NCBI GenBank assembly: GCA_902587325.1
Contig: CACIKV010000001.1
Span: 117,300 to 181,299, forward strand
Direction: 5' to 3'
Source: an uncultured Bacteroidota bacterium
Lineage (GTDB): Bacteria > Bacteroidota > Bacteroidia > Flavobacteriales > Flavobacteriaceae
DNA length: 64,000 bases
Below the pieces are notes generated by a model. The model ran no database searches. It was not told the DNA's origin and saw only the letters and a list, made by a program, of their open reading frames with translations. Of the stretch, positions 16,472 to 31,235 are shown piece after piece; position 1 is the stretch's first letter, and each line of letters starts with the position of its first letter. A program made the translations under genes and the position numbers.

Positions 16472-16479
16472 TACTTTTG
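16472..16479 (+). promoter_or_regulatory. -7 element TACTTTTG upstream of tmRNA
   Basis: TAnnTTTG match about 26 nt upstream of the mature tmRNA 5' end. Confidence 0.45.
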
Positions 16480-16505: not shown

Positions 16506-16893
16506 GGGGTCGACTGGATTTGACAGCGATTTAGTAATATTAGTAAGCAAATCGAGCGATTAGTTAAAGCTCGTTAATATCAACTAAAACTTTTAAATGG
16601 CGAAAATAAATACGCTCTTGCTGCTTAAGACTGAATTATAGTAGGTCTAGCCATGTTCTACAAGGTAGAAAAGCGAGATGTCTCGAAATTTTTTTTGTTA
16701 ACAATTATTTCATTGAGACACAGTTATGTTAACATAGGATAACTATTGCTTCGATAGTTATCTGAACTTTTGAAGATAAGTAGTGTTTGTGTAGTTTTCA
16801 GCAAGAATACTATCGAAAATTAAATGAAAACTAAATTTGTAGAAATCTAAAATTTCAGTCGTTTGGACGAGGGTTCGATTCCCTCCGACTCCA
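16506..16893 (+). ncRNA. ssrA: Transfer-messenger RNA (tmRNA)
   Basis: 5' GGGGTCGACTGGATTTGACAGCG and 3' GGGTTCGATTCCCTCCGACTCCA. Acceptor stem GGGGTCG pairs with CGACTCC (one G-U). Tag ORF ggc gaa aat aaa tac gct ctt gct gct taa (16599-16628) encodes GENKYALAA. Full CCA not encoded (CC-ACA follows). Confidence 0.97.
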
Positions 16894-16910
16894 CAAATTT
16901 TTAAATAATT

Positions 16911-27765: not shown

Positions 27766-28864
27766 GGTTAAATCTCCAGGAAGAATAAATTTAATTGGTG
27801 AACATACTGATTATAACGGAGGATATGTTCTGCCAGGAACGATCAATAAGGCAATTAACTTTGAAATTTTTAAAGTTAAAAAAGTTTATTGTGAGGTTAA
27901 ATCTGCAAAAATTAATAAATTATTAATTTTTGAAATAAACAATATAAAAAAAAGTGAAACTCATTGGCACAATTATATTTTAGGTACTATTGATTACTTT
28001 TTAAGTAAAAAAAATAAAATTACACCTTTCAAATGCTCTATCAAATCAAATCTTCCAATTGGTTCTGGGATAAGCTCCTCATCTGCTTTAATATCTGGAT
28101 TTGCAAAAGCAATAATTGAACTATTTGAATTAAAATACAGTAAATCAGATATTGTTAAAATAGTTAGTTACGTAGAGAGAAATTTTATCGGTTTGAGGGG
28201 CGGAATTATGGATCAATTTACAATAAATTATGGTTTAAAAGATAATCTTATTTTACTAAATTGTGATAATTCAAGTTACAATTATATTCAATTTAAAAGT
28301 AAATCTTTTTGTATTTTACTTCTGAATACAAATGTTAAGCATAGTTTAATTAATTCAGCTTATAACGATAGAGTTAATGAGTGTCTAGATGCTGAAAAAA
28401 TATTAAATACTTATTTTAATTGTAATAAAAAATTGGCAAATTTCACTCTTGATGAATTAGATTTAGTCAAAGATAAATTAAACCTAATTAGCTTTAAAAG
28501 AGCAAGATTTGTAATAAGTGAAAATACCAGAACTTTGAATGGTGCAGAGCTGTTAAAAAAATCAAATTATCATGAATTTGGAAAGTTAATGTATGATTCT
28601 CACAATGGTTTGAAAAATCTTTATGAAGTAAGCTGTGTTGAACTTGATTTCATTGTAGATTATACAAAAAAGTTAAATTATGTGGCAGGTTCAAGAATGA
28701 TGGGTGGAGGATTTGGTGGTTGTACCATAAATTTAATTGAAAAAAAAATTATAGATAAATTTATTGATGATATTTCCAAAAGCTATTTAACTACTTTTCA
28801 TAAGAATCTTACACCCATTAAAGTTAATATTGCCAATGGATTGACCTTTAAAAAAATTAAGTAG
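27755..28864 (+). CDS. galK: Galactokinase
   Basis: [57 protein letters not shown]. Confidence 0.96.
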
Positions 28865-30410
28865 CAACATTTACAGCTCTAGTCTCCCTAATAACGGTAA
28901 CTTTAACCTGACCAGGGTATGTCATTTCATTTTGAATTTTCTGTGATATTTCAAATGAAAGTTTTTTTGACATTTGATCATCAATTTTCTCACTTTCTAC
29001 CATTACCCTAAGTTCTCTTCCAGCTTGAATTGCAAAAGCTTTATTTACTCCATCAAAACTATATGCAACATTTTCTAAATCTTTTAATCTTTGGATATAA
29101 CTTTCCATTACCTGTCTCCTAGCACCAGGTCTTGCCCCAGAGATTGAATCACAAACTTGAACAACTGGAGATAAAAGATTGCTCATTTCAATCTCATCAT
29201 GGTGCGCTCCAATTGCATTACAAACATCTCCTTTTTCACCAAATTTTTCAGCCCACTGCATGCCAAGTAATGCATGTGGAGTTTCAGATTCCTCCTCAGG
29301 AACTTTACCAATATCGTGTAGTAATCCAGCTCTTTTAGCTAGCTTAGTATTTAAACCTAATTCAGATGCCATTATACTACACAACTTTGCTACTTCTTTA
29401 GAATGTTGTAATAGGTTTTGACCATATGAGGATCTAAATTTCATTCTGCCAACTGCTTTAATTAATTTAGGATGCAATCCATGAATTCCTAAATCAATTA
29501 CAGTTCTTTTACCGATTTCAACAATTTCATTTTCTATTTCCTTAGATGTTTTTTTTACTACATCTTCAATTCTAGCAGGGTGAATTCTACCGTCTGTAAC
29601 TAATTTTTTTAATGATAAACGTGCAACCTCTCTTCGTACTGAATCAAAACAAGAAAGTAATATAGCTTCAGGTGTATCATCAACTACTACTTCAACACCA
29701 GTAGCACTTTCTAGAGCTTTAATATTTCTTCCCTCACGACCAATTATTCTACCTTTAATATCGTCGGATTCAATATTGAAAACAGAAACACAATTATCAA
29801 TCGCTTCCTCGGTCCCTAATCTTTGAATTGAAGTTATTACAATTTTTTTAGCTTCTTGTTTAGCAGATAACTTAGCTTCATCTATTATATTTTGAGATAT
29901 TTCTAAAGCTTGGGATCTAACTTCATCTTTTAGCACTTTAAGTAACTCATCTCTTGCTTGATTCGCAGAATAACCAGCAATTTTTTCAATCTCTTTGATC
30001 TGGTTTTTTTGGATTTTATCAATCTCTAGTTTCTTTTTATCAATGGAATCATTTTTTTTATTGAAAGTTTTAATTTTATCTTCTAAATCTAATTTAAGTT
30101 TTTCAATTTTTTTTGATTTTAAGTCTACTTCACTTTCTTTTAATTTTAAATTTTGTTTTTTTTCTTTGTTTTCTGCTTCTTTTGATAAAATATACTTTTC
30201 ATGCTGAGATTTTAAATCTAAGAATTTTTCTTTCGCTTGTAAAATTTTATTATTTTTTATATTTTCAGCTTCAATCTGCGCATCAATTAATATTTTATCA
30301 GCAGAAGAAATCCTATCCTGAAGGTATCTTTTATTAAAAATTTTGGTAATAAAAAAACCGGTAATTCCACCAAGAAAAAAGCCTATTGATATATAAACTA
30401 AATATTCCAT
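28857..30410 (-). CDS. rny: Ribonuclease Y
   Basis: N-terminal TM plus coiled coil; KH domain [36 protein letters not shown] domain [15 protein letters not shown]. Confidence 0.97.
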
Positions 30411-30427
30411 AATTATTTTAAAAAAAA

Positions 30428-30577
30428 CCTACATACAGATTGATTGCATAAACTCTATTTATACAAGTTTAGAGCTAACTAAATATTCGAAAATCCTAAA
30501 AAAGGCACGCTCTAGCATTTAGACTCACTCTTTTTAATTTATTAGTGTTGAGTTTACCAAATTAAATCTGATGTAGG
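30428..30577 (-). ncRNA. ssrS: Probable 6S RNA (6S-Flavo-like) between zapA and rny
   Basis: Untranslated interval between zapA and rny. Nested complementarity: closing stem 30428-30441 (CCTACATACAGATT) with 30565-30577 (AATCTGATGTAGG, one bulge), second stem 30449-30455 (TAAACTC) with 30550-30556 (GAGTTTA), apical stem 30470-30475 (TAGAGC) with 30509-30514 (GCTCTA), leaving a large central bubble. Strand inferred from the flanking operon. Confidence 0.72.
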
Positions 30578-30602
30578 TAGTATTAATTTATTTAAATGAA
30601 CG

Positions 30603-30887
30603 TTAAGAATCTAAACATTGGGATAATAAATTATTAATATTAATTAACTCATGGTTAATTTCATTAATATTATCATCTTCATTTTTAGAAAAATTTTTAG
30701 ATTGACTTATTATCTGTAGCGCACACATTGCTAGACTATCTTGCTTATCTTTAACAGCATATTTCTTTTCATATTCAACAATCATATTATTAATTTGCTT
30801 TGATGCTTTTCTTAATAATTCCTCTTGACTAGGATTTACATTTAAAGGATAAATTCTATTTGCAATATTTAATTTAATTTTTTGCAT
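30603..30887 (-). CDS. zapA: Cell division protein ZapA
   Basis: KLNIANRIYPLNVNPSQEELLRKASKQINNMIVEYEKKYAVKDKQDSLAMCALQI. Confidence 0.9.
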   Translation of the reverse strand: MQKIKLNIANRIYPLNVNPSQEELLRKASKQINNMIVEYEKKYAVKDKQDSLAMCALQIISQSKNFSKNEDDNINEINHELININNLLSQCLDS

Positions 30888-31174
30888 TAAGAAGTTAATT
30901 TAATAATACAATCATCAATTTCATTAATCATTTTTTTAATTTTTCTTTTTGTTTTGTTCTTATCATTACTACCTAAAATAGCTTTTCCCATTTCTAATGC
31001 ATTATATTTTTCTTTCAATTTAATTATAACATTATCCTTATCTTTCAATATTTGTTTTACACTTAGAAGTTCATTAGAAAGCTCTGTATTTGAAGATTTT
31101 ACACTGTTAAATTTTTTTATGAGTAATTGCGTATTGTTTTTTAATTCTTCAATTATGAGCAAACTTTCTTTCAA
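30887..31174 (-). CDS. Small coiled-coil protein encoded directly upstream of zapA
   Basis: 95 aa, heptad-rich; stop/start overlap (TAATG) with zapA. Confidence 0.8.
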   Translation of the reverse strand: MKESLLIIEELKNNTQLLIKKFNSVKSSNTELSNELLSVKQILKDKDNVIIKLKEKYNALEMGKAILGSNDKNKTKRKIKKMINEIDDCIIKLTS

Positions 31175-31235
31175 AATTTTCAGCTATTATTTAAATTTAA
31201 AGTTAATTAATTTTTTGTAAGCTTTAGAAACATTA

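Follow-up and report, generated by a model that had tools for sequence, protein, structure and literature searches.

The window analysed here, a stretch of 64,000 nucleotides, carries on its minus strand a gene for a small protein, zapA and rny. As zapA ends at 30603 and rny begins at 30410, a gap of 192 nt separates them, in which the earlier note had seen nested stems with a large bubble on the minus strand and had proposed an ssrS (6S RNA) gene. Fold and coordinates bear out this architecture, and the extent then given, 30428–30577, matches the limits of the closing stem to 1 nt. The features of the locus are listed below.

30887–31174, minus strand: gene for a small protein before zapA, 95 aa, start codon uncertain (open reading frame and synteny)
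30603–30887, minus strand: zapA, 94 aa, upstream of 6S (Pfam PF05164, 57.3 bits)
30591–30601, minus strand: boxA-like element GTTCATTTAAA, 1 nt past the zapA stop codon, conserved in relatives
30427–30578, minus strand: 6S RNA (6S-Flavo), probable mature extent from the Rfam core and the covarying closing stem, exact ends putative
30450–30553, minus strand: match to RF01685 (6S-Flavo), model positions 1–108, 96.1 bits
30565–30578, minus strand: closing stem, 5′ arm ACCUACAUCAGAUU (fold; helix 1, two-sided changes in 8 of 11 pairs)
30550–30557, minus strand: helix 2, 5′ arm GUAAACUC (99.1% of cells paired, 68 sequences)
30532–30549, minus strand: central bubble, 5′ strand AACACUAAUAAAUUAAAA, unpaired in the consensus
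30471–30531, minus strand: apical part with AGAGU/GCUCU, the CUAAAUG pairing and the terminal hairpin (helices 3–6)
30456–30470, minus strand: central bubble, 3′ strand, within UAAACUUG..., resembling the −7 element TAnnTTTG
30448–30455, minus strand: helix 2, 3′ arm GAGUUUAU (covariation count)
30427–30441, minus strand: closing stem, 3′ arm AAUCUGUAUGUAGGU (fold and covariation)
30420–30427, minus strand: T8 tract after the closing stem (sequence)
28857–30410, minus strand: rny, RNase Y, 517 aa, downstream of 6S (TIGR03319, 614.7 bits)

The small gene, possibly the first of the zapA operon, occupies the same position in most relatives according to our synteny comparison; its 95-aa ORF matched no Pfam or NCBIfam family above cut-off and perhaps encodes a ZapB-like partner. 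Judged by the Rny protein, the nearest named relatives are marine Flavobacteriaceae/MED-G14-type genomes.

An Rfam/Infernal scan of the whole window returned only two matches above gathering scores, 6S-Flavo (RF01685) at 30553–30450 on the minus strand (96.1 bits versus a gathering score of 85, E = 1.8e-15) and tmRNA at 16506–16896 on the plus strand. The earlier note had proposed a search with both the 6S-Flavo and the classic 6S models: the former matches above its gathering score, whereas the latter (RF00013) gave no covariance-model match in the gap up to E = 10. The only further 6S-like family brought up by a sensitive scan of the gap was Bacteroidales-1 (RF01693, the suggested 6S of Bacteroidales), a weak full-length match whose 23.8 bits lie far under the cut-off of 60. 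Hence, although the RNA shares a closing stem, a bubble, an apical stem and a linkage to zapA with proteobacterial 6S/SsrS (PMC7641849), these scans support its being 6S-Flavo specifically and not an SsrS-type match. The 6S-Flavo family, of which the earlier note was aware, was described by Weinberg et al. in 2010 (PMC2864571); the match in sequence and structure extends along the entire model, the host belongs to the same family, Flavobacteriaceae, and we see no essential difference, which makes the RNA an addition to a known family and not a new kind. It is present in a single copy in its own genome, and RF01685 matched at E ≤ 0.001 in 39 of 60 relatives and in 200 of the 201 family genomes searched. 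There are reports of 6S expression in the flavobacterium F. psychrophilum (PMC9723704) and in Bacteroides thetaiotaomicron, in the latter with pRNAs (PMC7366714).

The predicted fold of the RNA reaches −38.2 kcal/mol, versus −25.8 ± 3.6 kcal/mol for dinucleotide shuffles (z = −3.44; none of 200 as good). In this fold, (i) the closing stem pairs 30578–30565 with 30441–30427, with one bulged U; (ii) a large bubble separates it from the stem formed by AGAGU (30531–30527) and GCUCU (30475–30471); and (iii) CUAAAUG (30522–30516) pairs with 30485–30479, followed by the apical hairpin. The three nested stems of the earlier note are thus present as described, while helix 2 (GUAAACUC/GAGUUUAU) and the T8 tract (30427–30420) had escaped it. 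Helix 2, which comprises 8 bp and sits between the closing stem and the bubble, is revealed by comparison only, the single-sequence fold instead favouring a local hairpin within the 3′ bubble strand. The 6S RNAs of other bacteria rearrange in the central bubble region and, by analogy, this hairpin may be a real alternative state.

We aligned 68 divergent sequences from the closing stem through the T tract; RNAalifold proposed 38 pairs, from which one isolated pair was dropped, leaving 37 pairs in six helices. Over these pairs, 96.5% of cells are paired, versus 85.2% in shuffles and 27–45% with slid partners. Compensatory changes among relatives, which the earlier note had put forward as a check, are extensive: two-sided changes affect 28 of the 37 pairs, amount to 309 cells versus 78 in shuffles, and occur with covariation in all six helices. 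In helices 3–6, 93–97% of cells are paired and 17 of 18 pairs show two-sided changes. The consensus displays a closing stem, a large central bubble and an apical stem; the closing stem and helix 2, both well supported by covariation, are omitted from the Rfam pairing of RF01685. A run of at least five T follows the closing stem in 188 of 190 relatives, and stem and T tract together look like an intrinsic terminator. The Infernal match and the compensatory changes in the stems, on which the earlier note had let its minus-strand ssrS depend, were both found, and the element is very probably the 6S RNA (ssrS) of a marine flavobacterium, a member of 6S-Flavo.

In E. coli 6S, the 3′ strand of the bubble takes the role of the non-template strand. 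Of the 181 relatives scorable by pattern, 143 have TAAACTTG or TAAACCTG at the beginning of this strand, and both sequences retain, at the upstream edge of the bubble, the T, A, T and G of the Bacteroidetes −7 promoter element, TAnnTTTG (PMC7366714); the edge is a possible promoter mimic. In TAAACTTG, read at 30456–30471 on the minus strand of the window, the fifth base is a conserved C, not T. CAAC, at the stem/bubble border of the 5′ strand, is invariant in the 68-sequence alignment and makes a candidate pRNA start, the 5′ strand being, by analogy, the likely template side. From general 6S biology, the RNA would mimic a melted promoter and tie up the housekeeping RNA polymerase holoenzyme, which would then copy 6S into a short pRNA and thereby release it.

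The linkage to zapA, which the earlier note cited for proteobacteria, holds in nearly every related locus: a zapA orthologue lies directly upstream of 6S in 38 of 39. Downstream, rny is found in most of the 39 and was not detected in 11 congeners (L010, L012, L014, L015, L017, L020, L024–L027 and L031), which makes zapA–6S the constant pair. The same linkage has been reported in beta- and gamma-proteobacteria (PMC7641849). Four of the 11 loci (L024, L026, L027 and L031) display a diverged leader element (GATC...) and a diverged closing stem.

Alignment of the regions upstream of 6S revealed a strongly conserved GTTCTTTAAAATA right behind the zapA stop codon, at 0–4 nt in most relatives (median 2 nt) and some 20–25 nt ahead of the closing stem. 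At most two mismatches to GTTCTTTAAAATA were found in 148 of 190 leaders, versus 1 of 536 equal-length windows taken from within zapA and the adjacent gene; 143 of the 190 distinct leaders contain the core G[CT]TC[AT]TT[AGT]A (2.0 on average and at most 5 in shuffles), and 69 (shuffle mean 0.2) match the gamma-proteobacterial boxA consensus, GYTCTTTAANA (PMC5725501), exactly, these leaders being related sequences and the counts therefore not independent events. The copy in the window, GTTCATTTAAA, deviates from the consensus at the fifth and eighth bases, as does GTTCATTGAAA in the 16S leader of the same genome, which also contains a NusB gene. A good core is absent in four congeners and in several more distant relatives; among the 11 congeners without detected rny, six keep it and a seventh (L010) is one base off, which speaks against rny alone accounting for the element. 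The idea that the fifth base (T or A) changes together in 16S and 6S leaders was dropped, since agreement in the own genus and in G036 is offset by failure in G033.

Like motifs accompany other stable RNAs. In the 16S leader of the genome, GTTCATTGAAA follows the promoter box TATATTTG; among relatives, 17 of 23 16S leaders carry a boxA-like motif, and in rRNA leaders it lies 85–172 nt before 16S. Most readable 16S–23S spacers, among which that of the genome itself does not figure, also carry one before 23S, commonly GTTCATTGACATATTG. In Flavobacteriales (L040–L079), we observed GTTCWTTGA elements before both 16S and 23S, as in the E. coli rrn operons, where boxA is found in the leader and before 23S (PMC10250234). 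In the window itself, the tmRNA leader contains two features:

16472–16479, plus strand: −7 promoter box TACTTTTG of the tmRNA leader, upstream of GTTCATTGAAA
16491–16501, plus strand: second copy of the element, GTTCATTGAAA, 4 nt before tmRNA (pattern search)

Because it follows the TACTTTTG box, this copy should lie inside the transcribed tmRNA leader; the core is present in 11 of 30 tmRNA leaders of relatives. At rRNA and tmRNA alike, the motif stands downstream of a TAnnTTTG box and thus, by position, inside the RNA. The pattern GTTCATTNAAA has exactly two occurrences in the window, one 4 nt ahead of tmRNA and the other a short way upstream of 6S; in a window so rich in AT this number is not significant, being attained in 31 of 100 shuffles, and what is telling is where the two lie. 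Genome-wide, GTTCATTGAAA is found three times: in the tmRNA leader, in the 16S leader and at one antisense site inside a coding sequence (L344), where no RNA family or tRNA lies and which we took as chance. The core was found in none of 30 SRP RNA leaders (L140–L169) and in only 3 of 28 RNase P leaders (L111–L138). For SRP RNA and the majority of RNase P RNAs, the mature 5′ end follows the TAnnTTTG box directly or almost directly, leaving no leader. The Bacteroidales-1 model gave only three weak matches over 148 genomes of the phylum, so that the leader comparison does not extend to Bacteroidales.

Among 134 loci, exact TAnnTTTG is nearly absent from the 240 nt before 6S. In 120 of the 134, a conserved TAnnTTTG stands some 690 nt upstream of 6S, ahead of the small gene that comes before zapA, and is likely the zapA operon promoter; upstream in the genome itself, only relaxed matches are present, TAACTTTA at 31205 and TAAATTTA at 31199. 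The lack of a nearby TAnnTTTG suggests that the boxA-like element at 6S is also part of the transcribed RNA, which at tmRNA and 16S is clear from position. A non-sigma-A promoter adjoining 6S is possible.

The arrangement of these elements leads us to favour, with reasonable rather than strong confidence, a model in which 6S has no sigma-A promoter of its own and is cut from a boxA-protected zapA operon transcript. Transcription would begin upstream of the small gene before zapA, and ribosomes would halt at the zapA stop codon; the boxA behind it would recruit NusB–S10, so that Rho would not terminate the polymerase on its way across 6S, which is untranslated; transcription would end at the closing stem and T tract, and 6S would be trimmed from the 3′ end of this transcript. 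Compared with rrn boxA/Nus-factor antitermination, the core (GTTCTTTAANA) is alike and the same genomes carry like motifs in their 16S leaders and ahead of 23S, whereas the element described here follows a stop codon and precedes a small regulatory RNA.

Three other explanations deserve consideration. That the stems have no function as 6S and are merely the intrinsic terminator of zapA or a 5′ leader of rny could be suggested by the T8 tract that closes the stem and by the start of rny about 10 nt past it; this is very improbable in view of the RF01685 match, the six covarying helices and the retention of the RNA behind zapA in the 11 same-genus loci in which no downstream rny was detected. 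Another explanation bears on the GTTCWTTAAAATA element, which could belong to a dedicated 6S promoter, used for instance by an alternative sigma factor, 6S then being made on its own. E. coli 6S is indeed transcribed from its own promoters, and the 20–25 nt between the element and the closing stem is a promoter-like spacing. However, the element matches a known RNA motif, the like motif of rRNA and tmRNA lies downstream of the TAnnTTTG box and so inside the RNA, and the core is missing from the genes for SRP RNA (present in 0/30) and from most of those for RNase P (present in 3/28), whose TAnnTTTG box abuts the mature end; we therefore regard a dedicated promoter as unlikely.

We hold it equally doubtful that the motif is a processing or pairing signal common to pre-rRNA, pre-tmRNA and pre-6S and unrelated to antitermination: its position near the sites where mature tmRNA and 6S begin would fit such a role, but in rRNA leaders it lies 85–172 nt away from 16S, and its sequence is that of boxA and, like boxA in E. 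coli (PMC10250234), it occupies the leader as well as a site preceding 23S. Protection of the zapA operon transcript by boxA remains the reading that we prefer, and its generalization, that flavobacteria use the antitermination machinery of rRNA for further stable non-coding RNAs as well, through a boxA after the zapA stop codon for 6S and through the tmRNA leader in part of the family, seems to us somewhat more probable than its opposite.

The new part of the finding is the rRNA-style boxA-like signal before 6S, the RNA itself being an ordinary 6S-Flavo. No description of a boxA-like leader of 6S or tmRNA was found in the literature library searched, which misses most subscription papers; judging by title and abstract, the few papers there that combine boxA with 6S RNA or tmRNA deal with other subjects, and none joins 6S, zapA and Flavobacterium. 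The boxA survey of Baniulyte et al. (2017) did not, by its own statement, consider non-coding RNAs (PMC5725501), and the consulted text of the original 6S-Flavo description (PMC2864571) mentions neither boxA nor operon context.

The identification of 6S closes an annotation gap, and the 6S-Flavo structure gains a covarying closing stem. Discussions of Nus-factor antitermination usually concern rRNA. A motif that stands before 6S family-wide and before tmRNA in part of the family suggests how these bacteria may carry the transcription of untranslated RNAs past Rho. If the model is true, the output of 6S and tmRNA would be coupled to the Nus factors that control ribosome synthesis, a link from ribosome control to 6S that a few point mutations could probe.
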